Below, one piece after another: positions 1-36,779 of a stretch of 64,000 nt of DNA. Position 1 is the stretch's first letter; each line of letters starts with the position of its first letter. This DNA comes from Unio delphinus (Eukaryota > Mollusca > Bivalvia > Unionida > Unionidae): contig JAQISU010000123.1 of NCBI GenBank assembly GCA_029339505.1, forward strand, positions 310,001 to 374,000. Direction: 5' to 3'. A program made the position numbers and the translations under genes. The notes beneath the pieces are model-generated. The model was not told the DNA's origin. It did no database searches and worked only from the letters and a program-made list of their open reading frames with translations.

Positions 1-50
1 CCCCTTCCCCCACTCCCCCACGAGAAGAACTCAAAACTTGGGTTAAAAAG

Positions 51-269
51 ATGATGGCTACTCCTTCTTCGACAGATGTGAAAAAGAAAGAAAGGAAACC
101 AGAAGTGAGAAAAGAAAAGAAGGCCAAAGAAGCTATCCCATTACCTCCGCCACCACCATTACCCTCGACGTCAACTCCTGTGGCACATCGGACACGTAAA
201 ACCGTTTCCAAACAACCCGCATTTCGTCCCACCCAAAGCAATATCCTCGAAGAGTGGGTCCCTTATTAA
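51..269 (+). CDS. Small proline- and lysine-rich ORF upstream of integrase, hypothetical
   Basis: This is a 72-residue ORF starting at tandem ATGs. It has a Lys/Glu-rich first third, a proline run near residues 31-37 and a basic stretch around AHRTRKTV, and it ends in LEEWVPY. Its stop lies 8 nt before the integrase ATG, the same tight spacing seen between the later genes. I do not recognise it. It could be a complete small gene or the 3' part of a longer, spliced or upstream-cut gene. The low-complexity composition makes chance coding possible. Confidence 0.35.
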   Translation: MMATPSSTDVKKKERKPEVRKEKKAKEAIPLPPPPPLPSTSTPVAHRTRKTVSKQPAFRPTQSNILEEWVPY

Positions 270-277
270 CAAAAACC

Positions 278-1390
278 ATGGAGAAGGTCTTAGCCAGCAT
301 TTACTACGATCCAGCTCACCCTGCAGGTTACGGAGGCATTCAGAAATTGTATCGTGCTGCCAAAACTCGCCTGAAAAAGCTCCGTTTACCAGCAGTACAA
401 CGATGGTTACAAGAACAAGCGACGTACACTTTACACAAACCCATTCGACGAAAATTTCACAGAAGTCGCACTCAAGTGGAAGGCATCGATCATCAATGGC
501 AAGCCGATTTAGCTGATGTCTCTTATTTAGCCACCTACAATCGTGGCTACAAATATTTGTTTTGTGTCATCGACGTCTTTTCTAAATTTGCCTGGGTCGT
601 ACCATTGACATCCAAATCGAGCGGAGAGTTAGTACGAGCTTTGCAACTGGTGTTGAAACAAAGCGGTCGTCACCCTCTTCGATGGCAAACCGACAAAGGC
701 ACCGAATTTCTGAACCAAGCTTTTCAACGAGAATTAAAAAAACGTGACATTCATTTTTTCACCACCGAAAATCCTGAAACCAAAGCCAGTATCGTGGAAC
801 GTTTTCAACGTACCTTGAAAGAACGCATGTGGAAATATTTTACACATCAACACACTCTCAAGTACATCGACGTCTTACCACACTTAGTCCAAGCCTACAA
901 TCAATCTTACCATAGAAGCATTGGACGTGCCCCACAAGAGGTGACACCTGACAACGAAGTCACTGTTTTTGAGCGTCTGTTTGGTACGTCCCGGACGAGG
1001 GCTGTCCCCAAGAAAGGTAGAGAAGTGTTAACCCCGGGAGATTGGGTACGCATTGGCAAAACCAAACGCACTTTCGACAAAGGTTACTTACCCAACTGGA
1101 CCACCGAATTGTTTCGTGTTACTGGACGAGTGCGCGATCGTCATCCTACCGTCTATAAATTGGAAGACATGAACGGAGAAGTATTAAAAGGAACATTTTA
1201 CTTGCCTGAGTTACAACGTGTTACCAAAAAAGAAGACGACGTGTACGACATTGAAAGCATTCTCGAACGAAGAACCCGTAAAGTAGGAAAACGTCGTGTC
1301 AAAGAAGTCAAAGTACGTTGGAAAGGATATCCTCCTAGTTTTGATTCTTGGATTGACGCTTCGCAAGTCATCGACTATAAAAAGAAGTGA
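278..1390 (+). CDS. DDE integrase with C-terminal chromodomain (retroviral-type, Polinton class)
   Basis: It is expected to insert the element's linear DNA into host chromatin. The frame is open from a GTG at 254, but the ATG at 278 has a good context (accATGg) and begins the conserved N-terminal block with YYDPAHPAGYGG, so I chose it (370 residues). The catalytic triad reads as D77 (in WQADL), D139 (in WQTDKGTEF) and E174 (in SIVERFQRTLKE), a DDx34E spacing. The usual retroviral HHCC zinc finger is replaced by the YYDP block, as in Polinton integrases. The last ~50 residues form a chromodomain (VYDIESIL, VRWKGYPPSFDSW), which may steer insertion to methylated histone tails. It is followed after 5 nt by the next gene. 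Confidence 0.93.
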   Translation: MEKVLASIYYDPAHPAGYGGIQKLYRAAKTRLKKLRLPAVQRWLQEQATYTLHKPIRRKFHRSRTQVEGIDHQWQADLADVSYLATYNRGYKYLFCVIDVFSKFAWVVPLTSKSSGELVRALQLVLKQSGRHPLRWQTDKGTEFLNQAFQRELKKRDIHFFTTENPETKASIVERFQRTLKERMWKYFTHQHTLKYIDVLPHLVQAYNQSYHRSIGRAPQEVTPDNEVTVFERLFGTSRTRAVPKKGREVLTPGDWVRIGKTKRTFDKGYLPNWTTELFRVTGRVRDRHPTVYKLEDMNGEVLKGTFYLPELQRVTKKEDDVYDIESILERRTRKVGKRRVKEVKVRWKGYPPSFDSWIDASQVIDYKKK

Positions 1391-1395
1391 CCATC

Positions 1396-1815
1396 ATGCC
1401 CTTCAATACAGCTTCAGCAACCACAGTGACTACTCCTTCACCCACGTCATCTCTGCAAGATTTACAAAAGCAACCCTTGTGGGTGTGGTGTGGAGAACGT
1501 GTCCCTAAAACGCAAATCGTTTTTTTCTGTCAAATCTTTGTGGTATATTGTGTCATTGGTGCAGCCATTGCTAATTTGAGTTTGCAACAAGGAGACAAAC
1601 AATTGTGGACCATTTTACTCAGCAGTTGCATCGGGTATCTTCTTCCCAATCCTTCCCTGAAATACTCTTACAACGGGAACAACAGTAACAATATTGGGAG
1701 TCTGGCGGCCAACGTTAGTCCTTCTCCTGACAGTCACCCTTCCAATCACAATCCTCTTTTAGATACTCCTTTAACCTCGAGTGACTCCTCGGACAGAAGA
1801 ACATTGGAAATATGA
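1396..1815 (+). CDS. Small membrane protein with two predicted hydrophobic helices
   Basis: This is a 139-residue protein. The frame extends upstream through the integrase stop, but the first ATG is at 1396. A Ser/Thr-rich N-terminus (1-20) is followed by two hydrophobic stretches at about 41-60 (IVFFCQIFVVYCVIGAAIA) and 70-84 (LWTILLSSCIGYLL), then a Ser/Asn/Pro-rich tail. A virion or host-membrane protein is plausible because it sits between integrase and capsid genes, but I cannot assign a family. Its TGA overlaps the ATG of the next gene (ATGA), an arrangement unusual for an animal nuclear gene. Confidence 0.6.
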   Translation: MPFNTASATTVTTPSPTSSLQDLQKQPLWVWCGERVPKTQIVFFCQIFVVYCVIGAAIANLSLQQGDKQLWTILLSSCIGYLLPNPSLKYSYNGNNSNNIGSLAANVSPSPDSHPSNHNPLLDTPLTSSDSSDRRTLEI

Positions 1816-2741
1816 ACAACACTATTAACCAATTTTACTTAACGTTACCCAGTGACAGTTCCATGGAGGTGTTTCCTAACAACACATTGTGTTGTTACAC
1901 GTCTAAATTACCTCAAGCTATGCATTTGGATCAAGATGATCACTGGGAAGCAGCTTTAGTGGAAATAATACACCCGACACAAATCAAAAACATCGTCGAA
2001 AATCAAAACTTTTTCACAGTTGAAGTGTACGACAAGCCATTGCAACAAGCCTTAGATGAACGAGGCATCACTGGCATTGACAACAAGAAATCAGATGGAC
2101 CCGCAACTAAACAACTGTCCACTCATGTGTTGACCATTCCTGCAGGCTACTATTTTAGCGGTCAACATTTAGTGACTACGATTGCAAGCAGGTTCAATGT
2201 TGTGTTTGGTAAACCCCTGGACAAAATCAGAGAAAGTGTTACCTTTGAGTACATTAAAGTGGCTCGCCGCTTCATGATCAAATTTTCAGAGAAGAAAATA
2301 ATAGCCATTACCTTTTGTCCTGAATTGTTTGATATCTTAGGTGGAGACCTCAAGATGCTCCCGAAAAAAAAAGAAATACCAGGCATATCCAGTAACTTGG
2401 ATTTTACCAAATATTTTCGATCCCCTGTAGAAATGAACCAAGGACTCAATTTGATGTTTGTGTACTCCGATGTGGTGGAGTACAACGTGGTAGGACACAC
2501 CTCTGTACCGTTACTGCGTGTCATTCCTTTCAAAGTGGATACCACTACCGCTGACGAGGAAGGTGGAAATACCTATCACGTTCACCGTGAATTTGTACAT
2601 CCTCATTATTTACCCGTCAGTAAGTCGTATTTCGACAGTGTCAACATTACTATAAAAGGAGAACTAGGTCAAAATATTCCATTTACCAAAGGGAAAGTCA
2701 CAGTGAAACTCCATTTTCAAAAACGATTCTCCAACAACTGA
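1812..2741 (+). CDS. Penton-like minor capsid protein candidate
   Basis: This is a 309-residue protein. The N-terminus carries FYLTLPSDSSMEVFPNNT, then a WEAALVEI segment followed by HPTQ. This N-terminal pattern (LPS.SS...FP.NT, then W.AL.EI..P) recurs in the putative penton/minor capsid proteins of adintovirus- and Polinton-like elements (established knowledge, recalled rather than searched). A beta-rich composition agrees with a jelly-roll fold. The start overlaps the upstream stop by 4 nt. A neighbouring hexon-like gene supports the role; structure prediction would decide. Confidence 0.6.
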   Translation: MNNTINQFYLTLPSDSSMEVFPNNTLCCYTSKLPQAMHLDQDDHWEAALVEIIHPTQIKNIVENQNFFTVEVYDKPLQQALDERGITGIDNKKSDGPATKQLSTHVLTIPAGYYFSGQHLVTTIASRFNVVFGKPLDKIRESVTFEYIKVARRFMIKFSEKKIIAITFCPELFDILGGDLKMLPKKKEIPGISSNLDFTKYFRSPVEMNQGLNLMFVYSDVVEYNVVGHTSVPLLRVIPFKVDTTTADEEGGNTYHVHREFVHPHYLPVSKSYFDSVNITIKGELGQNIPFTKGKVTVKLHFQKRFSNN

Positions 2742-2748
2742 AAAAGTG

Positions 2749-3189
2749 ATGTATCCTGTGTACCAAGGAGTCACTCGACAACGAGGACATGGTTTAGGAG
2801 ATATGTTTAAATCAGCCTTTCGTTCCGTAGTCCCTGTTTTAAAACCAATGGTGACACGAGGATTGCACACCTTAAAAGATGCCGCATTGACTCACGGCAA
2901 AGATTTTCTTTACAATGTTCTCATTGACAAACAAAACCCAAAAGAAGCTTTTTTGAGAGCAGGCAAAAATGCCTTGCTTCAAACGGGTAAAGAGCTTTTG
3001 GGTCGACGAGAAAGTCCTATAAATGCTCTGAACGGTACCACGTCTGACATTCCTACTTCCCTGACGACACAGCAAGGACAAGGTAGAAAGCGTCGACGAA
3101 GGCACCCTTTCAAAAGTCTCCGTACCTCAAAAGTTCGAAAGACAAAGAAAAAAAGAACCGCTCGAGACTTAGACATTTTTGATTATTAA
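2749..3189 (+). CDS. Basic virion core protein, pVI/pX-like
   Basis: This is a 146-residue protein starting at the ATG at 2749 (the GTG at 2746 is only an open-frame extension). It has an N-terminal Gly-containing amphipathic stretch (GHGLGDMFKSAFRSVVPV), a middle helical region, and a strongly basic C-terminal third (GRKRRRRHPF, KVRKTKKKR) ending in the acidic/aromatic DLDIFDY. The amphipathic helix plus basic tail resembles the adenovirus minor core proteins pVI and pX and their counterparts in adintoviruses. It probably contacts DNA or membranes inside the particle. It lies 7 nt after the penton candidate and 27 nt before the capsid gene. Confidence 0.55.
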   Translation: MYPVYQGVTRQRGHGLGDMFKSAFRSVVPVLKPMVTRGLHTLKDAALTHGKDFLYNVLIDKQNPKEAFLRAGKNALLQTGKELLGRRESPINALNGTTSDIPTSLTTQQGQGRKRRRRHPFKSLRTSKVRKTKKKRTARDLDIFDY

Positions 3190-3216
3190 AAGTGAAGAAA
3201 AAAACCTAAAGAAAAA

Positions 3217-4551
3217 ATGATGCACCAAGAATCTTGTGCCTGTTCCAAGTCGGAACTGGATCTCTTTGCCATGCCACCCACGATGATGACCATGCAAGAA
3301 GCTCAATGGGTCGAATTTCATCCCGTCTCCTCTTTGACGGATTCAGCTCCCATCGAGTTTGAAATCAAAGGACAACCCGAAGATTACATCGATCTCAACA
3401 ACAGTTACTTGTATTTGAAAGTGAAAGTAACCAAAACAGACAACACCAATCCAGGAGCCAATGATAGAGTAGCTCCTGTCAACAATTTCATGCATTCCTT
3501 GTTCAGCGATGTGGATTTGTACATGAATAACAAACTGATCAGCAGTAGCATGGATACTTACCCTTACCGAGCGTACCTCGAAAATCTCTTGACGTACGGA
3601 AAAGAAGCCAAGAACACTCATCTAGATGCTTGCGTGGTATGGAAACCTGACACTGCAGATAAGTTTAACGACACAGCCTTGCCCGCAGCAGCAGTCGATG
3701 GCAATCCTGCCGATCCTCACAATGAAGGTTTTAACGAGCGTCGAAAGAAAATTTTGCAAGGACGTAGTTTAGAACTGTTCGATCGTTTGCATTTGGACAT
3801 GTGGTTTCAAGAGAAGTATTTGCTGAACGGAGTAGATATTCGCTTGAGACTGAATCGAAGTAGTACTGCTTTCCATTTGATGGCTCATGCCAACGAATAC
3901 AAAACCATTATCCAAGAAGCCAGGTTATACGTACGTCGCGTGGAAGTGTTACCTAAAGTGGGAAATGATATCAGTCACACTTTGAGCAGAACGACAGCCA
4001 AGTATCCGATACGACGCGTGGAAGTCAAAACTTTCACCATTGCCGCTGGACTCCGATCTAAGATCGAAGATCATCTGTTCCAAGGACAGTTACCCAAACG
4101 TTTATTCATTGGTATCGTCAGCAATGCAGCCCTCAATGGTGCCCACGATGAAAATCCTTTCCAGTTTAAGCACTGCAGAGTATCCAAAATTGAAGTCAGT
4201 CGCGATGGCAAAACTTTGTGTACCAGACCCTTCGAACCCGACTTTGGCGAACAGAAAAATTACTTGAGGTCGTACTTGTCACTGTACGAAGCCACAGGAC
4301 AGTTAGGAACCAACACCAGTCACGGTATTTCCTACGACGACTATGCAAGAGGTTACACGTTGTGGGCTTTTGATTTCACTCCAGACCAAGGCAGCGACAA
4401 GGGACATTTCCACCCTATAAAATCTGGGCAACTGCGTGTGGAACTTCAGTTTGCAGCACCTCTTCCCGAAACGGTGAATATCATTCTGTATGCTGAATTC
4501 GATAATACCATAGAAATTAACAGTTTGAGAGAAGTCATTCTAGACTATTAG
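3217..4551 (+). CDS. Major capsid (hexon-like, double jelly-roll) protein candidate, F54H12.2-like
   Basis: This 444-residue protein is the largest in the cluster. Segments such as EFEIKGQPEDYIDLNNSYLY, VNNFMHSLFSDVDLYMNNKL and DTYPYRAYLENLLTYGKEAK match what I know of the nematode F54H12.2-like family, which is widespread in animal genomes within Maverick/adintovirus-like elements and is taken to be their capsid protein. The beta-rich pattern fits two jelly-rolls. Length is within the usual range for this branch, shorter than classical Polinton capsid proteins. An ATGATG pair starts the frame, followed by a Cys-containing leader (ESCACSKSELDLF). No damage is seen. Confidence 0.75.
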   Translation: MMHQESCACSKSELDLFAMPPTMMTMQEAQWVEFHPVSSLTDSAPIEFEIKGQPEDYIDLNNSYLYLKVKVTKTDNTNPGANDRVAPVNNFMHSLFSDVDLYMNNKLISSSMDTYPYRAYLENLLTYGKEAKNTHLDACVVWKPDTADKFNDTALPAAAVDGNPADPHNEGFNERRKKILQGRSLELFDRLHLDMWFQEKYLLNGVDIRLRLNRSSTAFHLMAHANEYKTIIQEARLYVRRVEVLPKVGNDISHTLSRTTAKYPIRRVEVKTFTIAAGLRSKIEDHLFQGQLPKRLFIGIVSNAALNGAHDENPFQFKHCRVSKIEVSRDGKTLCTRPFEPDFGEQKNYLRSYLSLYEATGQLGTNTSHGISYDDYARGYTLWAFDFTPDQGSDKGHFHPIKSGQLRVELQFAAPLPETVNIILYAEFDNTIEINSLREVILDY

Positions 4552-4556
4552 ACATT

Positions 4557-5054
4557 ATGGAAGACCCTTGTCCTTCTTTGAATAGTGGAGAATCCATGGA
4601 ATGGGAGGTTACAGAAAAAGCAGAACCCCAAGACCAAAAAGAAGAAGTAGTGATCATGCAATCCAGATGGCCAGAACAGGAACAACAGTTAGTGGCTTGT
4701 TTTGCACAACACTTGGAAGATAAAATGAGGGACCTGATTAAAAAAGATTGTTATGGATGTCAAATCGATCATCCCAGTCAAATTCAACACGATAAATGTA
4801 TGATGATGAGTCAAGAAGAAAAATTGGATGATTATCTGAACGAAGCTTGGAGTCTCATCTCCGAAGAAGACGTGTTACTTCAGTGGTATAAAGGCTTACG
4901 TGATCATTCCTCTCCTCCATTGTTTGCTCGAGAAATCGATCGCATCGAAGCTCTCTTGGCCAAAAGTAAAGAGACGAAGCAAACCATCAGTTACTTGTCA
5001 GACCGTTTCAAACAAAAAGTCTGGATTGAATTGATGACTTATCATCACCTGTGA
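4557..5054 (+). CDS. Conserved-type small protein with Cys/His cluster
   Basis: This is a 165-residue protein with an acidic N-terminus. Residues 65-81 hold C65-x2-C68-x3-H72-x5-H78-x2-C81 (CYGCQIDHPSQIQHDKC), a probable zinc site. The rest is helical, with an EEDVLLQWYKGL segment. Its place between the capsid and protease genes (5 nt after the capsid stop) implies a role in assembly or late expression, but I cannot name a function. I recall similar Cys/His proteins next to F54H12.2-like genes, but that is unverified memory. Confidence 0.6.
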   Translation: MEDPCPSLNSGESMEWEVTEKAEPQDQKEEVVIMQSRWPEQEQQLVACFAQHLEDKMRDLIKKDCYGCQIDHPSQIQHDKCMMMSQEEKLDDYLNEAWSLISEEDVLLQWYKGLRDHSSPPLFAREIDRIEALLAKSKETKQTISYLSDRFKQKVWIELMTYHHL

Positions 5055-5091
5055 AGAAAGGAGAGAAAAACACAAGGCGACACAACAAAAA

Positions 5092-5649
5092 ATGGATACC
5101 TGGGAACTTTATTATCTTTTGAACCGTAGTTCGTACACTGCTTCTTGGAATCCTGTCGTGTGTGCTAAAGATGAACTACCTCATCGCAAACCTCAAGAGA
5201 ATCAAGCTTATGTCATCAACACAGATGACAGTCATCTTCCAGGAACTCACTGGGTAGCTGTCTACTTTCCTCAAGAGGGTTGTGCGGAGTATTTTGATTC
5301 GTATGGATTGCCTCCTTTCGAAGATGATATCATTGACTTTATGAGAAGAAATGCTCAGACGACACGATTCAATAATGTGAAATTACAAAGCACAGATTCT
5401 ATGGTGTGTGGACAATATTGTATCTATTATCTGCATCATCGCAGTCTTGGATATTCTTTAGAACATTTAGTGACTTATTTTGATCGTCATTCGTCTCGAA
5501 ACGATGACAAAGTAGATCGATGGTTTTGTGACCATTATGGTTATCTGTTGTCTTTAGCTAGGAAACGTAGTGTACATCAATCGCCCAATGATTTCCAACA
5601 GTGGAAATCTCAATTTAATTCACAACGTTGTCAACCATGTCAAAGATAA
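5092..5649 (+). CDS. Adenain-type (C5/Ulp1-like) cysteine protease
   Basis: This is a 185-residue protein, close to the size of adenovirus protease. The catalytic arrangement is visible: H53 in GTHWVAVYF, D69 in EYFDSYG, the oxyanion-hole Gln Q99 in KLQSTDS and nucleophile C106 in MVCGQYCIYYL. In this family the enzyme cleaves capsid and core precursors during maturation; the neighbouring basic core protein and capsid proteins are likely substrates. It is the last gene of the compact cluster and is followed by a poly(A) signal. The ATG at 5092 has the context aaaaaATGg. Confidence 0.88.
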   Translation: MDTWELYYLLNRSSYTASWNPVVCAKDELPHRKPQENQAYVINTDDSHLPGTHWVAVYFPQEGCAEYFDSYGLPPFEDDIIDFMRRNAQTTRFNNVKLQSTDSMVCGQYCIYYLHHRSLGYSLEHLVTYFDRHSSRNDDKVDRWFCDHYGYLLSLARKRSVHQSPNDFQQWKSQFNSQRCQPCQR

Positions 5650-5671
5650 TGTATTGGTGTTATGGAAGAAA

Positions 5672-5733
5672 AAAAATGTTTGTTCTTTGAAATAATGTTT
5701 GTTCTTTGAAATAATGTTTGTTATTTGAATAAA
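5672..5733 (+). terminator. Poly(A) signal of the structural cluster, on a triplicated 20-mer
   Basis: Three near-identical copies of a unit containing TGTTTGTTCTTTGAAATAA lie in a row; the last has mutated into TTTGAATAAA, giving AATAAA at 5728-5733. It is followed by TGTTGTGTTTT, a GU-rich downstream element. This is the only canonical poly(A) signal I see between the integrase and the first accessory gene, so the cluster may share one 3' end. Confidence 0.6.
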
Positions 5734-5862
5734 AATGTTGTGTTTTGAAAACCAATGCGTCTGTCGTTTGTTTTACATTTGTATTCATATAAATGCTCTT
5801 TGACTTTTCTTTCTATCCCTCACATCAAACTATCTAAACGTTTCAAAACCCTAAACCGCAGA

Positions 5863-5902
5863 GGGGTGTTTTCCATCACGTCCGCGCTTGAACCATATAA
5901 AG
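5863..5902 (+). promoter_or_regulatory. Shared promoter module, copy 1 (accessory gene 1)
   Basis: GGGGTGTTTTCCATCACGTC continues into CGCGCTTGAAC and then a TATA box (CATATAAAG) about 60 nt before the ATG at 5956. Near-identical modules at fixed geometry precede the other two accessory genes. The CACGTC core could be an E-box/CRE-like site (inference). Downstream, CAGTCTGGC is shared with copy 2 and may mark the start site. Confidence 0.8.
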
Positions 5903-5955
5903 CAGGGGTAGTCTCCAGTCTGGCCATCCATTGTTTGACTCATCCTCCTACGAAG

Positions 5956-6315
5956 ATGTGCTCAAGACTAGCTAAGCTGAACGAAGCTTATGTCACTCTG
6001 CATCGTATCAGACACAATCTGATGCCAAAGCCTGAAGAGATTGAGAATGTAAGAATGCTACAAGTAACGGAAGACCTCATAGAAGAACTCTTCAGAGAGG
6101 AAATTCAAAAAGAGAAAGAAGAATGGACTGAGAAGTATCGACTTCAAAAGCAGCAGAGAGAGCAGAGAGAACAGCATCAGCAGCATCAGCAACAGCAGCA
6201 GGAACCAGACAGAAGTTTTGTCGACTGTCGTGTGGACACGAAAGAGTTCTCTTTCTCTTTCCGAAGAAGCAGACCCTATCGTGTAGCCAAACGAGGACGC
6301 AATCTTAGACGATAA
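5956..6315 (+). CDS. Accessory gene 1: coiled-coil, Gln/His-rich protein with basic tail
   Basis: This is a 119-residue protein. The frame is open from 5755, but the TATA box at about 5896 lies inside that extension, so the ATG at 5956 (context gaagATG, shared with its two sister genes) is the likely start. The first ~70 residues are charged helix, then comes a Gln/His tract (about 67-85), and it ends in an Arg-rich tail (RPYRVAKRGRNLRR) that could bind nucleic acid or act as a nuclear signal. I do not recognise a family. It has its own promoter upstream and a histone-type stem-loop 43 nt after the stop, so it looks like a separate transcription unit from the structural cluster. Confidence 0.65.
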   Translation: MCSRLAKLNEAYVTLHRIRHNLMPKPEEIENVRMLQVTEDLIEELFREEIQKEKEEWTEKYRLQKQQREQREQHQQHQQQQQEPDRSFVDCRVDTKEFSFSFRRSRPYRVAKRGRNLRR

Positions 6316-6357
6316 AAGATTGTCATCCTTCCTCGTACACACAAACACAAAAAAAAC

Positions 6358-6394
6358 AGCCCTTTTCAGGGCTACCCAATATTCTAGAAAAGAA
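6358..6394 (+). terminator. Histone-type 3' stem-loop with purine block, copy 1
   Basis: Stem AGCCCT/AGGGCT (6358-6363 and 6368-6373), loop TTTC, then ACCCA directly after the stem, and GAAAAGAA at 6387-6394, starting 14 nt after the last stem base. The metazoan replication-dependent histone mRNA end has GGCTCTTTTCAGAGCC, an ACCCA flank and a purine-rich U7-binding element about 9-15 nt on (established knowledge). There is no AATAAA close by. Confidence 0.75.
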
Positions 6395-6599
6395 TTAATT
6401 ATTCAATTTGCTTATGGTATGTGAGGAAGTTAGAAAAAAATAGAAGTGAGTCTATAATCACTGTCTCATTTTACTTTTGTTTTGAAGTGCGTCTATAAGC
6501 ACAACGTATTTTTTCAAAATAACTTGTTCAATGTATAATTAATAGGAGTCAAGTATAAAAGTGAGTGAGTGTTTTATTTTAAAAGTCCGCTTGTTTTGT

Positions 6600-6690
6600 T
6601 TTTTGGTAATGATAGGGATAATGTAAGTTTCTTGGATCTAGGGGGTGTTTTCCATCACGTCCGCGTGTTTTGGTAATGATAGGGATACTG
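6600..6690 (+). promoter_or_regulatory. Extra upstream copy of the promoter motif, tandemly duplicated
   Basis: GGGGGTGTTTTCCATCACGT (from 6641) continues into CCGCG but lacks the TATA part. It is flanked by two copies of TTTTGGTAATGATAGGGAT (near 6601 and 6669), so an upstream segment of about 70 bp has been duplicated. The complete module of accessory gene 2 follows at 6712. Confidence 0.65.
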
Positions 6691-6711
6691 TAAGATTTTT
6701 GGGTAATCGTA

Positions 6712-6751
6712 GGGGTGTTTTCCATCACGTCCGCGCTTGAACTATATAAAG
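6712..6751 (+). promoter_or_regulatory. Shared promoter module, copy 2 (accessory gene 2)
   Basis: GGGGTGTTTTCCATCACGTC, then CGCGCTTGAAC and TATATAAA at 6743-6750. Over 40 bp it differs from copy 1 at about one position. TCAGTCTGGC at 6761-6770 is a candidate initiator and matches copy 1. Confidence 0.8.
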
Positions 6752-6799
6752 AAGCACTCGTCAGTCTGGCTACCTATCGTTGACGCATCAACACAAAAG

Positions 6800-7288
6800 A
6801 TGAGTAGAGTTCAAAAGCTAAGAGAGCTTCAGATGCACTTGGAGAATGCGAGGCGTCTCCTGGACGAACTGGCAATGGAGGCCTTAGAAGAACAGACTAG
6901 GATTGAAAGAGAAGAGGAGGAAAGAAAAAGGAAAGAAGAGGAGGAGAAGAGAAGACCTATCTTGCCTCACCGTATGATGAGACAAACAAGTCAAGTTACT
7001 CCTATGGTGAGGACGCCTTCACCACCAGAACCAGTTCGTCCACTACAGACACAAGCCCCACCGCAACAAACACAACCTCAGCCGCAACAACCACAGCCTC
7101 AGCCGCAACAACGACAGTTGCGGAATAGGCGAAGATATGAAGACGCTTTCACTATCCCTCAAACAGAAGATTGGGATAGTGAAGCCACTCATTCTCCCTC
7201 TGCACTCCCAGTCACAAGGGTGAATTGGGAGAATGATTGGAGTAGGAGATGTGTGTGTGGGGCTAGACCTGGGAGATGCCAGCATTAA
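6800..7288 (+). CDS. Accessory gene 2: coiled-coil, Pro/Gln-rich protein
   Basis: This is a 162-residue protein from the ATG at 6800 (context aaagATG). The longer open frame from 6737 starts within the TATA region and is unlikely. Residues 1-55 are a charged helix rich in Glu/Arg/Lys; about 75-115 is a Pro/Gln-rich linker with imperfect repeats (QPQPQQPQPQPQQ); a basic RQLRNRRRY stretch follows, and the C-terminus has three Cys (CVCGARPGRCQH). The overall layout (N-terminal helix, low-complexity middle, basic part) resembles accessory gene 1, but I cannot show homology by eye. Function unknown. Promoter and stem-loop are shared in type with its sisters. Confidence 0.65.
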   Translation: MSRVQKLRELQMHLENARRLLDELAMEALEEQTRIEREEEERKRKEEEEKRRPILPHRMMRQTSQVTPMVRTPSPPEPVRPLQTQAPPQQTQPQPQQPQPQPQQRQLRNRRRYEDAFTIPQTEDWDSEATHSPSALPVTRVNWENDWSRRCVCGARPGRCQH

Positions 7289-7316
7289 CCAGGTGCAATT
7301 TGAAGTTAAAAAAAAC

Positions 7317-7353
7317 AGCCCTTCTCAGGGCTACCCAAATAACAAGAAAAGAA
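7317..7353 (+). terminator. Histone-type 3' stem-loop with purine block, copy 2
   Basis: Stem AGCCCT/AGGGCT (7317-7322 and 7327-7332), loop TCTC, ACCCA flank at 7333-7337, and CAAGAAAAGAAA with GAAAAGAA starting at 7346, again 14 nt after the stem. It lies 29 nt after the stop codon of accessory gene 2. CAAGAAAAGA closely resembles the CAAGAAAGA U7-pairing element of sea urchin histone genes (recalled). Confidence 0.75.
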
Positions 7354-7421
7354 ATACTATGTCAATTGCCAATGGGTGTGAGAGAGGAGTAGTGTGATTA
7401 TAAACACTGACTCTATTTAGA

Positions 7422-8078
7422 TGGTATAGGGTGTGATTTTGGATAGTATATAGTAGGGTTTGTTTTGGCTGCTTCCCCGTGTGAGTGGTTAGTATAGGGT
7501 GTGATTTTGGATAGTATATAGTAGGGTTTGTTTTTGGCTGCTTCCCCGTGTGTGTGGTTAGTATAGGGTGTGATTTTGGATAGTATATGATAGGGTGTGT
7601 TTTGGCTGCTTCCCCGTGTGTGTGGTTAGTATAGGGTGTGATTTTGGATAGTATATAGTAGGGTTTGTTTTGGCTGCTTCCCCGTGTGTGTGGTTAGTAT
7701 AGGGTGTGATTTTGGATAGTATATAATAGGGTTTGTTTTGGCTGCTTCCCCGTGTGTGTGGTTAGTATAGGGTGTGATTTTGGATAGTATATAATAGGGT
7801 TTGTTTTGGCTGCTTCCCCGTGTGTGTGGTTAGTATAGGGTGTGATTTTGGATAGTATATAATAGGGTGTGTTTTGGCTGCTTCCCCGTGTGTGTGGTTA
7901 GTATAGGGTGTGATTTTGGATAGTATATAATAGGGTGTGTTTTGGCTGCTTCCCCGTGTGTGGTTAGTATAGGGTGTGATTTTGGATAGTATATAGTAGG
8001 GTTTGTTTTGGCTGCTTCCCCGTGTGTGTGGTTAGTATAGGGTGTGATTTTGGATAGTATATAATAGGATTTGTGGAT
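7422..8078 (+). repeat. Tandem array, ~68-bp unit, about ten copies, between accessory genes 2 and 3
   Basis: The unit contains GTATAGGGTGTGATTTTGGA, then a TATATAGTAGGG part and GGCTGCTTCCCCGTGTGTG. Copies are nearly identical and differ mainly in the number of GT repeats and in TATATAGT versus TATATAAT. The last copy is truncated about 30 bp before promoter copy 3. Each unit holds TATA-like strings, so it could modulate transcription or replication, or be a plain expansion. Confidence 0.9.
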
Positions 8079-8104
8079 AGTATCTAATATGACAAGTGAA
8101 TGTA

Positions 8105-8145
8105 GGGGGTGTTTACTTTCACGTCCGTGCTTAAGATATATATAC
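8105..8145 (+). promoter_or_regulatory. Shared promoter module, copy 3 (accessory gene 3)
   Basis: GGGGGTGTTTACTTTCACGT continues as CCGTGCTTAAG and then a TATA box (ATATATATAC, about 8136-8145). It is more diverged than copies 1 and 2, but the spacing from CACGTCCG to the TATA box is unchanged. The ATG at 8192 lies about 50 nt downstream. Confidence 0.7.
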
Positions 8146-8191
8146 TCAAAGTGACTGACATTAGAACCATTCCACGGAATAACCATAGAAG

Positions 8192-8779
8192 ATGGCAAAA
8201 GCATCAAGTTTATTCAACAATTTAAGACACAGCTATTTCTGGATATTAGACGGGGAATATGAAGTGGAAAAACTACATCATAAATGGAAGATTGCGAAGA
8301 GTTTGGACTTTGCAAAAAGACTGAAAATAGCCAGGGAGCTCTTAGGAGGAATGCTAGAAGAAGAAGCCAAAAAGTTACGAGGCTGCATTAATCCACCCTA
8401 TGTTAGAGTGGGGACATTGAAGCAAGTAATAGATATTGTCGGAAACGTCAAGTGTTTTTTGGATAATATCTTGACAGAGTACCCCCATGTCCAAAAGGGT
8501 TTGGACCCGCTCAAGAAAGCTGAAGAACTGATGAGAAAGGAACTATTAGAAGAAGTGAAGAAGATCAAAGATAACTGGAGTAAGGAGAGAAAGGAAAGAA
8601 AGGACAATGAAAACCAAAAAAAGAAAAAGGACTTTGAAAGATTAAATAACAATTGGATAAAGATACAAGAGAAGTTTAGAGCTATGGGGCATCCTGACTG
8701 GATTCCCGAAGAAGAAAAGAAGAAGAAAACGGGAATCATTGGTAAAATCAAAAGGTGGTGGAACAATGCCAGAAAATAA
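8192..8779 (+). CDS. Accessory gene 3: helical, lysine-rich protein
   Basis: This is a 195-residue protein beginning at ATG 8192 (context gaagATGg, like its sisters). Residues 1-70 are helical with aromatic residues (YFWILDGEYEVEKLHHKWK). The middle (about 70-115) has mixed hydrophobic helices, 115-155 is a Lys/Glu-rich coiled coil, and the C-terminus (GIIGKIKRWWNNARK) is a short amphipathic basic helix that could touch membranes or nucleic acid (inference). No family recognised. The stop is 21 nt before the third stem-loop. Confidence 0.65.
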   Translation: MAKASSLFNNLRHSYFWILDGEYEVEKLHHKWKIAKSLDFAKRLKIARELLGGMLEEEAKKLRGCINPPYVRVGTLKQVIDIVGNVKCFLDNILTEYPHVQKGLDPLKKAEELMRKELLEEVKKIKDNWSKERKERKDNENQKKKKDFERLNNNWIKIQEKFRAMGHPDWIPEEEKKKKTGIIGKIKRWWNNARK

Positions 8780-8799
8780 AAGAAGAAGAAATATCCAAA

Positions 8800-8835
8800 G
8801 GCTCTTTTCAGGGCCACTCATAAGTCTCGAAAAGA
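8800..8835 (+). terminator. Histone-type 3' stem-loop with purine block, copy 3 (closest to canonical)
   Basis: CCAAA precedes the stem GGCTCT/AGGGCC (8800-8805 and 8810-8815) with loop TTTC, then ACTCA, and GAAAAGA at 8829-8835, once more 14 nt after the stem. Against the canonical GGCTCTTTTCAGAGCC there is a single change (AGGGCC for AGAGCC), which turns a U-A pair into a U-G wobble. Relative to copies 1 and 2, the first pair changes from A-U to G-C, a compensatory change that supports selection on RNA structure. Confidence 0.8.
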
Positions 8836-8921
8836 TAGTAGCTTTCATTGCCACCCTTTTTTTCCCTTGTCCCTAGACAGTTTCCCTATACCCATACAAA
8901 TCATATTCCCCATGTTCCATG

Positions 8922-9176
8922 TCCCTTGAGGCTAAATAGGCCCAAATAGTTCCCATGTTCAATTCCCCTTGACGCTAGATAGGCCCACCATGTTCAATTC
9001 CCCTTGACGCTAGATAGGCCCACCATGTTCAATTTCCCTTGACGCTAGATAGGCCCAAATAGTTCCCATGTTAAATTCCCCTTGACGCTAGATAGGCCCA
9101 CCATGTTAAATTCCCCTTGACGCTAGATTAGCCCAAGCTGTTTTTGACTGGATTTTCCCTTGACGCTAGAGTGCCC
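8922..9176 (+). repeat. Tandem array, ~33-46-bp unit, about seven copies
   Basis: CCTTGACGCTAGATAGGCCC recurs with spacers carrying CATGTTCAATTCC or an extra AAATAGTTCC. The spacers vary little and the units are direct, not palindromic. It follows the last accessory gene and may mark the element's right-hand boundary region. Confidence 0.85.
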
Positions 9177-9213
9177 CATATTACTACTCCTGGTGCAAAT
9201 GGAGATTTCGAAT

Positions 9214-10140
9214 AAATGAAAAAGACAGTTAGGCCAGATGCGATAAAATCCAATTGTTCAGAATCTTTCCAGGGGAATAGATATTTATTATCGTTACAAC
9301 AACAACAACGCGAACCTTCTCAACAACAACCGCTAAAAGTTAAATCTGGTCTTAAAGATGTCTTTACGTCTTAGGATATTAAGAATATGAAGAATCCGGA
9401 TAAAACAGTAAATTTTTCTGGATATGGATACGATAAAGCAGAACAATACTTAAGATCTAAAATTGTTGGGGTTATTAAACGTTAAGATTGGATCAAACGA
9501 TGTAATTCTTATTGCTGAAGATCGTCAGCCTGTCAGAGATGATGATGAAGAATTTATAAATTTAAAAGTAAATAACCGAATATGATCCAGAAGATCTTCG
9601 CGATGTTACTCAAATTGTTTTTTTTTTCTTCTTTGTCTAAGTCAGAAGGAAGTGGTCATAGTTCATGTCCTAATAATATTCTTTCTGACGACGTAGATCG
9701 ATTATACATTCTGATTCGAGGAAAACGAGCTGGAAATAATTAGAGAAAGAAGAAGGAAAATATACGAAAGATATTGGCAGAAAATTAATCGGTAAAGTTA
9801 CTCAAGGTGGATCATGTGATCATATTGTACAAGATCAATTATAGTGGATGTTGAACTCAGTTTTATAATTGCTGATACCGCATGCGAGAATACGTTTATA
9901 AGTCAAGAAACAGCTTTTTAGTCAAATGGAACTAAATTAGGTACAATTGTAAGTTATACTGATGGTGAGTCATCGCAGTTTATCCATTTAAGATCAACAA
10001 TGCTCGAATGTTTCAATAAATCTATGATCGGTGATAAATATATTTCCTGACACCACGGTCAGAGTTGCCACAGAATCATTTTATAACGAAGGAAAATGTT
10101 CAAACTTACTTACGTTTACAGGTACTGGTTAGGGAGAGTG
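9214..10140 (+). pseudogene. Decayed AT-rich coding remnants, unidentified (viral block)
   Basis: Long stretches read as protein in the plus frames but are broken by stops and frame changes. Starting at ATG 9217 there is a Gln-rich segment, then GYGYDKAEQYLRSKIVGV. Later frames give SDDVDRLYILIRGKRAGN and HLRSTMLECFNKSMIGD. Composition and codon flavour match the helicase remnant downstream, so it is probably part of the same decayed insertion. I cannot assign a family. Confidence 0.4.
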
Positions 10141-10148
10141 GAGAATAA

Positions 10149-10176
10149 AAAAAAAGTCCTTTTTAGAGCTATTGAC
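10149..10176 (+). terminator. Degenerate stem-loop resembling the accessory-gene 3' ends
   Basis: AGTCCTTTTTAGAGCT follows an A-run. A 6-bp stem with loop TTTT forms with one mismatch and one wobble. The following GACTTTCATTG resembles GCTTTCATTG after copy 3. It may be an eroded relative of the histone-type ends, but there is no purine block at the expected place. Confidence 0.3.
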
Positions 10177-10581
10177 TTTCATTGTTTTAATAGGGTCTTC
10201 CACTTGGTTTCGGAAACCCTCCTTGACAAGCTCTATCCAAAAAGCCTAACTTGATCATTTTCGGACCCACTGCTCAAAATTAACAATCTAATTCTCTCTG
10301 ACAGTGGCTACCTTTCAAATGACGTTTAGTCATATCAGCAAAAGAAATTGTTAGGGACATATAATATGTACACTTTTGTACTAGAAGATTGGCATAGATA
10401 GGAACGTAATTTAATTCTTCAACTCTACCATTTGATGAATTGCATCGGTGGCTTACACAATTTTGGCATAGGGAAATCCACTAGAAAAACTGGATTGAAT
10501 TTGGAATAAGCGTACGTACTTTCGATTGGTTGATAGGTTGAGTGCGTGATGGGTCTATTCCCACTCACCCAGGTCTAACAC

Positions 10582-10724
10582 TCATATCATTAGCCCCTTT
10601 TTAGGGGTATGATATGACGACCAAATTAAATAGCGCACTCTGTGCGCATAAACGCCAGGAAGATGTGGCACCATTCCATCTTCCTGGATAAATTAAATCA
10701 CTGCCATGTAAATAAATGGCAGTG
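10582..10724 (+). other. Cluster of four hairpins before the helicase remnant
   Basis: Four inverted repeats stand in a row: TCATATCAT...CCCC/GGGG...ATGATATGA (10582-10617); GCGCAC/GTGCGC with a 3-nt loop (10633-10647); CCAGGAAGATG/CATCTTCCTGG (10655-10687); CACTGCCAT/ATGGCAGTG (10699-10724). A fifth, weaker one (TGAG..CTCA with TGGG/CCCA) may sit at about 10537-10566. Arms differ between hairpins, so this is not one repeat unit. Possible roles are transcript ends, an origin or a packaging signal. Confidence 0.8.
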
Positions 10725-10796
10725 CAAAATAGTGAACATATGACCCTAGTGGCCGGTTTCACTTTAAATCCAACTATTCATTCATAAAACAAAAAA

Positions 10797-12159
10797 TGTT
10801 ACACGGTTATACCGAATCCGCTGATGTTACCGTTAAAGATATGTATCGTAAAAAAAAATAAGTTATATTTATCATCAGCGCCATCTGTGTATGATCCCGT
10901 ATCCATAATATTGACTTTTTATCTCAGGGCCGGACCTAAATTTTTCGGGGGGGGGGGCCCAAACTTGTTATTGGGTTAAGCGAGCCTTCTAGGGAGGGGA
11001 GGGGGGGCCGGGGGCAGGCCCCACCGCAAATTTTTTTTTTCAAGGATGCAAAATGGTGCAATCTGGTGCTATCTGAACTTTGAAAAAAGGATCGAACAAA
11101 AGTCACTAAAAACTGCAATGTTTTAAAAACACTAAAAAAAAGATACAAAAAAAAGAAATAAATTAAAAAAATTAAAAAATTCGGACCCCCCTTTGCATCT
11201 TTTATCAAAAGCAGTGAATAGTTTTTTTTTAAAGGGGGGGGGGGGGGGCGGGCCCGCTGGGCCCCTATAGCAGGTCCGGCCCTGTATCTATTCGAATCTG
11301 GTGGTTGTGGTAAAACAACTCGAATTTTTAAATGATTTAGTCAGGGTTTGGATTCAGTCGTGCTAACACTATACGCATATACTTGCGAGAGAAATGAAAA
11401 AGAGAGGTGTAATATCATATACTTATCACATCTTATATTGACGGAAGGGAGATAAATGGACTTTTGATCAAATGGGTGAGAAATATCTACCTAAAATAAT
11501 AATAATTTGGGATGGAACATTTGCCGTTTTATTAGATGAGTTAAATATGTTTCTGAATTATTTACTGTTAAAGAACACTGCGGTAACAATGAGCTTAAGA
11601 AACTAATCAGACTAAAACCAAAAATATTCAATGTGGAGTAATGCATGAAACAATTTTAGAAACTTATACGAGCGATTTTTGGGATAAATGGAGACCAAAC
11701 GATTTGATAGTGGCAAATAAAAAGATAGTTCGTAATACGCTTCAAAGAAATTATTTATATTACATTAAGACAATAAATTCAGATCTACCCATACCGTTGT
11801 GTTATCGAACAGCAGATACACGACGACAGAATATTAACGTTGATATTCCAGGATTGTCAGAAAAACGAAATCTTGTTTTAAATGATATTGTCCTAGTTGA
11901 CGTCAGTATTTTCGAGAAAGCGTTAACTACGGACAAAAGTAAATGGACGCTAGGATACGCAATGATGATCCATTCATCACAACGATTAACCATTTCTGAT
12001 ACGCGAGTTTGGATCGTCGATGATCGTATCGAACAGTCAAGTTTAGTGTATCTTATAGTGTCTCGAGTCAGAAGAATGTCTGAGTTGCGGAGAGTTATCA
12101 TAGACATTACAGAAACTGTTGGTGATGTTACTGACAATGAAAAAGTAAGATTATTTTAG
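10797..12159 (+). pseudogene. SF1 helicase remnant (Pif1/RecD-like), viral type, split by a MITE
   Basis: The reading begins at ATG 10797 (MLHGYTESADVTVKDMYRK), breaks at a stop, resumes past a MITE at 10925-11284 with a Walker A-like ESGGCGKTTRI (about 11291-11325) and a Walker B-like VLLDELNMF (about 11528), then an intact 172-residue stretch from 11641 with LGYAMMIHSSQRLTI and LVYLIVSRVRRMSELRRV, the conserved C-terminal motifs of SF1 helicases. In the IHSSQ motif, R stands where the family usually has G, another sign of decay. Such helicases occur in large DNA viruses and virus-like elements. Several stops and frame changes make it non-functional. Confidence 0.7.
10925..11284 (+). mobile_element. 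360-bp MITE inserted in the helicase remnant
   Basis: It has perfect 13-bp terminal inverted repeats CAGGGCCGGACCT / AGGTCCGGCCCTG. The 5-bp direct repeat TATCT flanks it on both sides (10920-10924 and 11285-11289). The interior has G-runs near both ends and AT-rich non-coding middle. CAGGG termini recall hAT elements, but an 8-bp duplication is not seen, so the superfamily is open. Confidence 0.85.
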
Positions 12160-12808: not shown

Positions 12809-13325
12809 AGTGTGTGTGTGTGTGTGTGTGTGTAATTAGGGATTTTAACGTAGCTTTATAATAAAAACAATCAGTCATATCGCTACGATATCTGCAGTGA
12901 GGCAGTTTATAGTGATGTCCAGCACTGGGCATCATGTAACAGACATGTAGCATGATGTCCCACCCAGTCACATTATCCGGATCGACCAGTCTTAACACCA
13001 GGTCGACCAGTCTTACAGTCCCAGATTACCCATTAGGCAGAGTAGGCAACTGCCTATGGGCCCCGCGACTTTTATGGGCCCCATCAGGGGCCCCCATGAG
13101 ACCGTGACCGTGGGTCTGGGGCCCCAAAAGTTTGACTGCCTATGGGCCTCCACGGTGCTTAATCCGGCGCTGCAGTCTTAACACTAACCTCTAAATTTTG
13201 AGCGTCAAGCGAGACAGCTGTTAGTACCATTTTTATATCTTTGGTATGACTTGCCCGGGGATCGAAACCATGACTTCCCGCTTCAGCGGCGGACGCTCTA
13301 AACAGTAGACCACCGGAGCGGTTAT
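12809..13325 (-). repeat. tRNA-headed SINE, minus strand, interrupted by a hAT MITE
   Basis: Read on the minus strand, it begins with a tRNA-like head at about 13325-13250 (A box within TGGTCTACTGTTTAGAGCG, B box GGTTTCGATCCCC), continues into a body shared with copies at 17.2, 17.5 and 32.3 kb, and ends in a (CA)n tail at 12809-12832. A 157-bp MITE sits in the body. Confidence 0.75.
13016..13172. mobile_element. hAT-type MITE, 157 bp, copy 1
   Basis: Imperfect terminal inverted repeats start CAGTCCCAGATTA on the left and CAGCGCCGGATTA on the right (reverse complement). A perfect 8-bp duplication, CAGTCTTA, flanks it (13008-13015 and 13173-13180). A same-length copy in the other orientation lies at 57350-57506 with its own 8-bp duplication. 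Confidence 0.92.
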
Positions 13326-17481: not shown

Positions 17482-17790
17482 ACTCCGGTGGCCTAGTGGT
17501 TAGAGCGTCCGCCTCAGAAGCGGGAGGTCGTGGGCTCGATCCACGGCCGAGTCATATAATTAAAAAAATGGTACTAAAAGCCTCGCTTGGAGCTCAGCAT
17601 AAAGAGGTTAGTGTTAGGACTGGTCGGCTTGTTGTCAAGATAATATGAATGGATGGGACGTCATGCTACATGTCTGCGGCATGTGCCCCTGTGCTATACA
17701 TCATTTAAAAATATCACTGTAGACACCGTAGCGATATGACTGAAAAGTTATTAAAGCTACATTAAAAATCCAAATTACACACACTGAAAA
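17482..17790 (+). repeat. tRNA-headed SINE, plus strand, second copy
   Basis: Head: GGTGGCCTAGTGGTTAGAGC and GGGCTCGATCC. Body: GACTGGTCGGCTTGTTGTCA and CATGCTACATGTCTGCGGCA. Tail: AAATCCAAATTACACACAC. It stands about 50 bp after the previous copy in the same orientation. Confidence 0.8.
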
Positions 17791-34430: not shown

Positions 34431-36525
34431 GCTTTACAAACACATAATCTAACACTGATACAGCTCTATTTGTTTCAATTTCTCAGCACTTGTAATTTGA
34501 CACCTAGCCTTAGAATAACAACTAATGCCTAACACTGACCCCAAGTGATGTTTTATCTAGCAGTGAACTAACTAGATTTAGCCCTATAATATGTCCCTCC
34601 GGCCTAGCAAAATTTGGTCCCCAAATTTTTATAACATACGATGGTTTTGGCCAAACTAGTGAATAAATTGGGTTAAACATGAATTTCAGTGTTTTACATG
34701 GCATCAGTGTTCACACATACCTCCTTGCACACTACAAACCTACCAAATATACTACCTTAAATTTACATTCCATTGTGCAGGGTAGTAATATACCAATAAT
34801 GCAATCTGTTACAATCTTTTAAAAATAACTTGATACATATATATGCTAAATGGTTTCAAACACTGAAATATTAACCACGCTAATAATTTCTATATCATGT
34901 TTGTCTACCAAAAGTCATAATGACAGTTCTATAAATGTCTGACTTCACTTCAATCTACTGTACATTTTATAATGTTCTATGACTGTCACATCCTTTGAGT
35001 GTAATTTGCAGGTATCCCAAGGATTATCAAAATGTTTGTGAACCTAATAAGAGTTGGCATCAACACTATGCCATAAGCTGCTTTAAATTTGCAGGAAGTG
35101 ATTTGTTTACAAAGAATAATCCATTTGATATACATGTATGCACATAATTATTAATAGTCTTATTGTGGAATTTATACATTTGCTCTGCTATACCATAGGA
35201 AGGAAGATGTGCAGGATAGATATGGAAGAAAAGGTTGATAGGAAAGTATAGCATAGCAAAACAAACATAATGAGTCCACCTTAAGAATCAATGAAGTCCA
35301 TTTGGAATATTCACTTTGAAAACCTTTTCTTTTTTCTTTTTCCTTGTAATGTTCTTGTGACATGAAATTCCCCGAGCAAAAACTGTGATAAACCTTCCTC
35401 AGGTTCCCAGGTTGTCTTGGGAAAATCTCGCCACTTAACCTTATAAACACGCTTGCCATGATGTCGACTGCAGGCTAGAATTTTATCCACAATACCCCAT
35501 TCTTCCTTTGACTGTGCTGTTGCAGGTTCATCTGATGTCAAGGACTTGGAAGATGAATCTATTGTAGGTGCTGGAACATCATTTGTCCTGTTGTGGGCTG
35601 GTTTAACTGAGGGTCTGCTATCATATGTTTTGGTCTGTACAGAGGTGTGTGTCTCTGTTGACGTTGTGGTCTCTTGTGGTTTAGCTATCTGAGTTGTATG
35701 ATCTAAATACTCGTTTCTGTTGTCAGGGCTGAAGTATGACTTTAGTCTGTTTGCGTGGACTAATGATCTCTGTAGTTTGTGATCATCACAATCACGTAAC
35801 TTGTATGTATGATTGGGTCCTATGTCACTGATATACCATGGTCCTGTCCATTTCTTATGTAATTTAGATGATCTCCCTTTTGGTACTTTTGGATTGTGCA
35901 TCCATACTCGTTGTCCCAGGTGAAAAGAGGGTTCTTGAGCGTGTGTATCATAATATTCTTTGTATTTTTGCTGGGAGTTCTGAATATTGTCTCTGGCAAC
36001 TTGTCTGGTTATCTCCATTTGTGTTTTGAGCTTGTGTAAATAGGTTGCTGTTGTATCTTTTATCGTCTTTTCTGTATTTAAAGGGTTAGCAAGAGAAACA
36101 TCTAGTGGAGCTCTCATTTCTCTCCCAAAGACTAATTCGTAAGGGGAAAATCCAGTTGAATTGGTGCATGGTGTCTTGCGGTAAGCCATTAGGATTCTTG
36201 GTAACACATCGACCCAGTTTTGTTGCGCTTTGTCAATATAGGTGCGTATAGATTGAGCTAATGTTCTGTTGAATCTCTCGCACGTAGAGTTGGTTTCGGG
36301 ATGGTAGCTTGATGTATGGAATCGTTTAATATTCATGTTCTTACAGAGTTCCGATATGATATATGCTTTACAAACACATAATCTAAAACAGATACAGCTC
36401 TATTTGTTTCAATTTCTCAGCACTTGTAATTTGACACCTAGCCTTAGAATAACAACTAATGCCTAACACTGACCCCAAGTGATGTTTTATCTAGCAGTGA
36501 ACTAACTAGATTTAGCCCTATAATA
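34431..36525 (-). mobile_element. Truncated Ty3 (gypsy) retrotransposon with chromodomain integrase
   Basis: It has two 161-bp direct repeats (34431-34591 and 36365-36525) with about two differences, taken as LTR segments. On the minus strand a purine tract (GGCCGGAGGGACA) adjoins the left copy, as a polypurine tract should. Only the 3' part of pol lies between; the right repeat abuts pol directly at 36364, so gag, protease, RT and most of the integrase core were deleted. No matching target-site duplication was found. Confidence 0.75.
35311..36336 (-). pseudogene. Ty3 pol 3' end: integrase C-terminal half plus chromodomain
   Basis: 341 open codons begin in the integrase core just before the catalytic Glu (SYHPETNSTCERFNRTL) and include MAYRKTPCTNSTGFSPYELV, the GPWYISDIGPNHTYKL beta-domain and a chromodomain (EWGIVDKIL, VYKVKWRDF, TTWEPEEGL). 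The first two catalytic Asp residues are missing because of the upstream deletion. The frame itself is undamaged, so the truncation is recent. Confidence 0.85.
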
Positions 36526-36779
36526 CCACCCTCATAGGAAAAATTAGTTGTTTACTAAAATAAAATTTGCTTGTCAGGTACACAATTAACTAGATTTTGG
36601 ACAAGGTCAAGTACAAAATACAATTATACATACCACATAATAATGGGAAAAAATGATATGCTAAAACCAATACTAATATAAAACTAAAAGTTACACAATG
36701 AACTTGACTTTGGACATAATTTTTAGCAATCAAACTAATCAGCAGTCAATTAGTATTTTTGTTAAGTGATGGCCAACTT

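Follow-up and report, generated by a model that had tools for sequence, protein, structure and literature searches.

Candidate histone-type 3′ end signals behind the accessory genes of a Polinton/adintovirus-type element in the bivalve Unio delphinus

We analysed a stretch of 64,000 nucleotides (nt) from Unio delphinus (Mollusca; Bivalvia; Unionidae), positions 310,001 to 374,000 of the forward strand of contig JAQISU010000123.1 (GenBank assembly GCA_029339505.1), hereafter the window, numbered from its first letter. The first 9 kb are, by sequence, part of a Polinton/adintovirus-type element. Each of three accessory genes of this element is followed by a hairpin and a purine block, and these are very likely histone-type 3′ end signals on the genes of a virus-like element, an identification that is well supported. 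We put at roughly 0.8 the probability that the accessory genes are RNA polymerase II genes with a single open reading frame (ORF) built like replication-dependent histone genes, the transcripts of which would be processed by the host SLBP and U7 small nuclear ribonucleoprotein (snRNP), lack poly(A) and be linked to S phase.

The three signals lie on the + strand and show the same order 3′ of each stop codon: a 16-nt stem-loop, the flank ACYCA, an 8-nt spacer and the block GAAAAGA, a candidate histone downstream element (HDE). Copy 1 stands behind accessory gene 1 (5956-6315), with the stem-loop at 6358-6373, the flank ACCCA at 6374-6378 and GAAAAGA at 6387-6393. Copy 2, behind accessory gene 2 (6800-7288), has its stem-loop at 7317-7332, ACCCA at 7333-7337 and GAAAAGA at 7346-7352; in copy 3, behind accessory gene 3 (8192-8779), the same parts are at 8800-8815, 8816-8820 (ACTCA) and 8829-8835. 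The stems are AGCCCT/AGGGCT in copies 1 and 2 and GGCTCT/AGGGCC in copy 3, and the loops are TTTC, TCTC and TTTC respectively. Hallmarks of the histone stem-loop are a 6-bp stem, a 4-nt loop, a G-C second pair and U as the first and third loop nucleotide. All of them are present in the three copies, as is an ACCCA-type flank with CA 5 nt past the stem, and GAAAAGA starts at nucleotide 14 past the stem in 3/3 copies, a purine element at a fixed distance. Such a CA, 5 nt past the stem, is given as the cleavage site of histone pre-mRNA in the available text of PMC6303110. An earlier sequence-only reading of this DNA had placed the stem-loops 20-45 nt past the stops (measured distances 42, 28 and 20 nt for genes 1, 2 and 3) and had described loops, flanks and the position of GAAAAGA correctly to the base.

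The Rfam covariance model RF00032 (gathering score 34) matched copy 1 with 34.4 bits over 6353-6399, copy 2 with 33.2 bits over 7312-7356 and copy 3 with 30.9 bits over 8795-8841 (expectation (E) values of 6.3e-7, 1.8e-6 and 1.3e-5 respectively). This low-threshold search covered positions 1-12000 of the window with 4227 Rfam families at E values up to 1, and within that range RF00032 had no fourth match; no core gene was followed by one. When the gathering cutoff was applied to the 64 kb, copy 1 was the sole match. The histone-type identity put forward by the sequence-only reading is thus well supported, because of the covariance model, the fixed spacing with diverged spacers, the presence of one signal per accessory gene and the fact that none was found to follow a core gene of the window.

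The observed arrangement is real and far from chance. A stem pattern allowing up to two mismatches matched three times in the 64 kb (0.02 expected). At a limit of three mismatches, the complete pattern also had three matches in the 64 kb and none in 100 shuffles (0/100). The + strand of the 64 kb has 14 copies of GAAAAGA alone (2.2e-4 per position). Each 31-nt piece, copy 1 included, folds to exactly the predicted hairpin (-8.4 to -9.0 kcal/mol, z -2.4 to -2.7), and 4-5 of 200 shuffles folded as well. A chance likeness, or a repeated sequence of no function, would agree with the tandem repeats in which the region is rich, with the relationship of copies 1 and 2 by duplication, and with a 2025 survey in which 8300 polinton-like virus and virophage genomes were compared with Rfam at gathering. 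The available text of that survey reports six 'histone 3'UTR stem-loop' hits, none of them in cryptophyte elements, which indicates that unexplained lone hits occur (PMC12220804). However, six hits in 8300 genomes also mean that three within 2.5 kb are not background. Since, in addition, no shuffle matched, the differences between copy 3 and copies 1/2 fall mostly outside the functional positions, and one copy stands behind each of the three stops with no further copy in the window, this explanation is improbable in the extreme and was rejected.

Viral contigs were used as controls. Two stem-loop patterns had no match among them, another found 13 contigs and another a single one. The 13 contigs carry a near-identical 18-mer, which in five of them (L003, L005, L011, L012 and L014) lies within one related surrounding sequence; none of the 13 had an RF00032 match at gathering, and none had GAAAAGA at the right position in the printed flanks. 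The single contig, picked out by its canonical 19-nt stem-loop, reached 21.3 bits. The low results of these contigs show that the hairpin sequence alone does not yield scores such as those of the three copies.

When the three copies were aligned on the stem, identical columns were most frequent in the signals (GAAAAGA 7/7, flank 4/5, stem-loop 12/16), while outside them identical ungapped columns were few (spacer 1/8, upstream 7/30, downstream 5/25). A spacer of constant length and varying letters is what a distance-measuring machine would select. In the first stem pair, both sides differ between copies 1/2 (A-U) and copy 3 (G-C), which the sequence-only reading had also noticed; pair 4 (C-G vs U-G) is changed on one side. 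Copies 1 and 2 are duplicates (75% identity over 77 nt) and, consequently, the independent comparison is that of copy 3 with copies 1/2. The evidence base is one element with three copies, two of them sister copies. When gaps were allowed, all three copies also seemed to have the block TCA(A)TTGC in common, about 10 nt past GAAAAGA (6394-6415, 7353-7375 and 8836-8856); it may extend the pairing with host U7 or be a chance similarity.

Copies 1 and 2 could also be read on the - strand, where a GC hairpin is followed by a U run, as in an intrinsic terminator; terminators or attenuators of this or another kind might then account for the hairpins. A weak match to a bacterial small RNA on the - strand (6347-6398, 22.3 bits vs a cutoff of 45, E 0.78) is in line with this. 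By contrast, a U run is missing from the - strand of copy 3, the genes recognised in the element lie on the + strand, and neither the loop nor the flanks nor GAAAAGA would have a role in such a terminator. Moreover, an animal host is indicated by the integrase, with its rve core and chromodomain, and by the capsid protein, which has relatives in bivalves. The terminator explanation is very unlikely, and on these points its bacterial form was rejected.

The accessory genes also share their 5′ ends. The block GGGGTGTTTTCCATCACGTCCGCG stands unchanged upstream of genes 1 and 2 and differs at four of 24 nt upstream of gene 3, and from this block to the TATA box the three genes align without gaps. 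The promoter blocks including TATA are at 5863-5900, 6712-6749 and 8106-8142 on the + strand, with TATA 61, 56 and 56 nt upstream of the ATG of genes 1, 2 and 3 respectively. Shared promoter blocks and shared 3′ signals mean that the accessory genes are laid out as cassettes, with a common promoter, a private ORF and a common histone-type end. At up to seven mismatches, the only other copy of GGGGTGTTTTCCATCACGTCCGCG in the window is at 6642, upstream of gene 2, and has no TATA. This extra copy is held in a 70-bp tandem duplication (6601-6735) and is possibly a second factor-binding site. As for polyadenylation signals, an AATAAA is located at 5728, 78 nt past the protease stop, and the + strand then has no AATAAA or ATTAAA until 8641, inside gene 3. 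Genes 1 and 2 are thus followed by neither of these two signals, which are the ones that the scan covered.

In the proposed mechanism, each accessory gene would have its own TATA promoter, a short leader, a short 3′ untranslated region (UTR) and the stem-loop with the purine block as its 3′ end signal. Because known cis elements stand in the right order at plausible spacing, we infer that the machine acting on histone transcripts would also process the accessory mRNAs, and it is likely that the histone machinery of the host uses these signals. Host SLBP would bind the stem-loop, host U7 snRNP would pair with the GAAAAGA region, and cleavage would follow the A of ACYCA, five nucleotides past the stem. 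Such processing would in turn make the accessory mRNAs poly(A)-minus and S-phase-linked: they would be made, exported, translated and destroyed together with the host histone mRNAs. The accessory proteins would thus be present in S phase, when nucleotides and replication enzymes are at hand, and an S-phase purpose of these 3′ ends is a good hypothesis. The capsid and integrase genes, which have no histone-type signal, would use another 3′ end.

Several observations weigh against this reading. Only one of the three copies passes the Rfam gathering cutoff; the sequence-only reading had proposed the covariance search as a check and an outcome below threshold for all three as refutation, and copy 1 (34.4 vs 34) stands above the threshold while copies 2 and 3 do not. 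The first stem pair is A-U in copies 1 and 2, compared to G-C in the Rfam consensus, and the 75% identity of these copies over 77 nt means that they probably represent one event. Pairing with U7, judged with a mammalian U7 5′ end that may not be that of the host, was not clear-cut, as 4.6%, 40% and 12% of 500 shuffles paired equally well. In a lucinid clam, histone mRNAs are reported to have a palindromic stem-loop near the stop, and purine-rich elements only in some, at varying places (PMC6210712, available text); this makes it less certain what downstream element to expect in the host. Among genome contigs one relative was found, a Bathymodiolus locus (L001) within the metagenome-assembled genome (MAG) of a symbiont, and this only other related locus is without an RF00032 match at a threshold as lenient as E 5; its genes, however, are broken. 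Finally, gene 3 could be polyadenylated through either of two AATAAA sites, one at 8775, which overlaps its stop codon and lies about 20 nt upstream of the stem, the other at 9211.

These two AATAAA sites would also fit hairpins that are histone-type and bind SLBP, for instance as a captured host histone 3′ end, but whose main role lies in keeping the mRNA stable, in its translation or in providing a back-up 3′ end; poly(A) would be used as well, and there would be no cell-cycle gating. A human histone (H2A) pre-mRNA with both signals can take either processing route, according to the available text of PMC9756948, and by analogy gene 3 may have two 3′ end options. Nevertheless, the + strand between 5728 and 8641 is free of the two signals scanned behind genes 1 and 2, and no part of the arrangement is better conserved than GAAAAGA, a block that in histone genes is cleaved off and does not appear in the finished mRNA. 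Stability or back-up ends without gating are an unlikely explanation, and host histone-type processing remains our preferred one.

Compared to known systems, the accessory genes have in common with the 3′ end of replication-dependent histone mRNAs (RF00032, SLBP/U7 snRNP) the 6-bp stem, the UYUC loop, the G-C second pair, ACYCA and a purine block at a fixed distance, and with replication-dependent histone genes the short UTRs, the TATA promoter and the uninterrupted ORF. Features of this type are described for the canonical histone genes of a cnidarian as well (no intron, short UTRs and predicted TATA boxes; PMC5011920, available text). The accessory genes differ from replication-dependent histone genes in that their products are not histones by Pfam, in their location in a virus-like mobile element and in the A-U first pair of two copies. 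Polintons/Mavericks and adintoviruses (Adintoviridae) share with the element the rve and chromodomain integrase, the double-jelly-roll-type capsid protein and the adenain-type protease on one strand, and small accessory genes at one end; the histone-type 3′ ends on accessory genes are what sets the window element apart. Xeno-class adomaviruses and tailtomaviruses with 'Histoid' genes are likewise histone-connected animal DNA viruses, one of them with adintovirus-like virion proteins and from a clam dataset, but there the protein resembles histones, whereas in the window element the mRNA 3′ end does (PMC11071296, available text). In the available part of PMC12721341, histones are mentioned in other connections only.

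The sequence-only reading knew of no described Polinton with such ends. This needs qualification, since a count of stem-loops in the wide polinton-like group is already in print: the genomes surveyed in PMC12220804 are of a related kind and have RF00032 hits, given in the main text, as far as available, as a count without host, place, downstream block or function. Titles and abstract beginnings among the matches listed in the open-access literature, subscription journals not being covered, contained no histone-type 3′ ends on animal virus or transposon genes. Within the same open-access scope, no publication was found that places the signal behind accessory genes, that describes the downstream block or the shared promoter, or that deals with such a signal in an animal element. 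The accessory-gene 3′ ends are a new use of a known 3′ end system.

The accessory proteins are small and basic (isoelectric point (pI) 9.0-9.7). Protein 1 has 119 amino acids (pI 9.5), protein 2 has 162, and protein 3 has 195 (pI 9.7) and is predicted to be all-helical. Pfam gave no family above its cutoff for any of the three, and no histone family at E values up to 0.1; by this measure they do not encode histones. Genes 2 and 3 are conserved, as their proteins have 13 (E 1.5e-57 to 3.9e-21) and 11 (E 7.8e-100 to 4e-37) homologues in the protein database respectively. Homologues covering more than 90% of the query numbered nine for each protein, with identities of 51-63% for protein 2 and 49-84% for protein 3. 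Protein 2 consists of an N-terminal helix, a middle rich in proline and glutamine and a conserved C-terminus ending in RCVCGARPGRCxH, and its structure model is of low confidence (predicted local distance difference test (pLDDT) 69.6). When compared with two libraries, the model of protein 3 (pLDDT 80.4) matched no fold at E≤0.001. Common ancestry of the accessory proteins was considered and rejected (profile comparison probability below 2% for 2 vs 3 and for 1 vs 2). As a guess, the accessory proteins might help to make the element or the cell ready for replication. A 68-bp unit is repeated 9.6 times (7424-8074) in the stretch that separates accessory genes 2 and 3, and past gene 3 there is an array of 35/113-bp repeats (8910-9135), perhaps near the terminus.

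The core of the element comprises the integrase, the capsid protein, the protease and four further packed ORFs, all on the + strand. The integrase gene (278-1390) encodes an rve core and a chromodomain (PF00665, E 1.9e-12; PF00385, E 1e-7). The major capsid protein (3217-4551) is of the double-jelly-roll (DJR) kind by homology: it had 1713 homologues at E≤1e-3 among 7996 scored, and in the capsid alignment (A1) 1/23 members matched the DJR-like domain PF21738, while the window protein itself had no Pfam match and no PDB match by sequence. Among the 120 capsid homologues listed, the closest showed 78-92% identity, and those with an organism name came from the bivalves Mercenaria, Crassostrea, Ostrea and Saccostrea (45-54% identity) and, in one case (P0052), from a Candidatus Thiodiazotropha MAG. 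The last core gene (5092-5649) is assigned, weakly by sequence, to the adenain-type cysteine proteases (PF00770, E 0.021, below its cutoff; PDB cysteine protease S273R, E 7.2e-5). For six proteins NCBIfam gave nothing near its cutoffs. Intergenic gaps in 278-5649 are 5, 7, 27, 5 and 37 nt, with one 4-nt overlap (1812-1815), and this tight packing leaves little space for promoters; an ATTAAA at 3185 overlaps a stop codon. No polymerase, ATPase or left terminus was seen in the window, the start of which lies inside the element.

No relative was found among viral contigs with the capsid protein alone, the capsid alignment or the alignments of accessory proteins 2 and 3. The Bathymodiolus locus has a Polinton-like block (L001:5702-11337) in which the capsid frame is broken, as is the integrase frame by eye, on a contig binned as Candidatus Thiodubiliella; the block is probably host DNA in a bacterial MAG, and P0052 looks like a similar case. 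Just past the capsid gene of L001 (11734-11798), there was a match resembling the Twister-P1 ribozyme (28.9 bits vs a cutoff of 67.2, E 0.014).

Elsewhere in the window, direct repeats of 169 bp, 97% alike and 1934 bp apart, span 34431-36533. The - strand ORF between them (35311-36336) holds integrase and chromodomain pieces and is weakly like the Polinton integrase (36% over 59 amino acids). An inverted repeat of 161 nt, 97% complementary, has its arms 44 kb apart at 13013-13173 and 57349-57509. A tRNA model match at 17482-17553 lies just above the cutoff (29.3 vs 29) and was not called by ARAGORN; it is perhaps a tRNA-derived repeat.

Taken more widely, we consider it reasonably likely that a lineage of animal virus-like elements follows a split 3′ end strategy, in which structural genes would be conventional and mutually unrelated accessory ORFs would sit in cassettes of promoter, ORF and histone stem-loop/HDE run by the S-phase histone pathway of the host. 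If this is true, there would be non-histone protein-coding mRNAs in animal cells with a histone stem-loop end, and such genes would be missed by poly(A)-selected RNA-seq. The six stem-loop hits in other polinton-like genomes, left uncommented in the available text of PMC12220804, may find their explanation here. The genes of a mobile DNA virus would be coupled to host DNA replication through the 3′ end of the mRNA, giving the virus a means at the RNA level to sense S phase.

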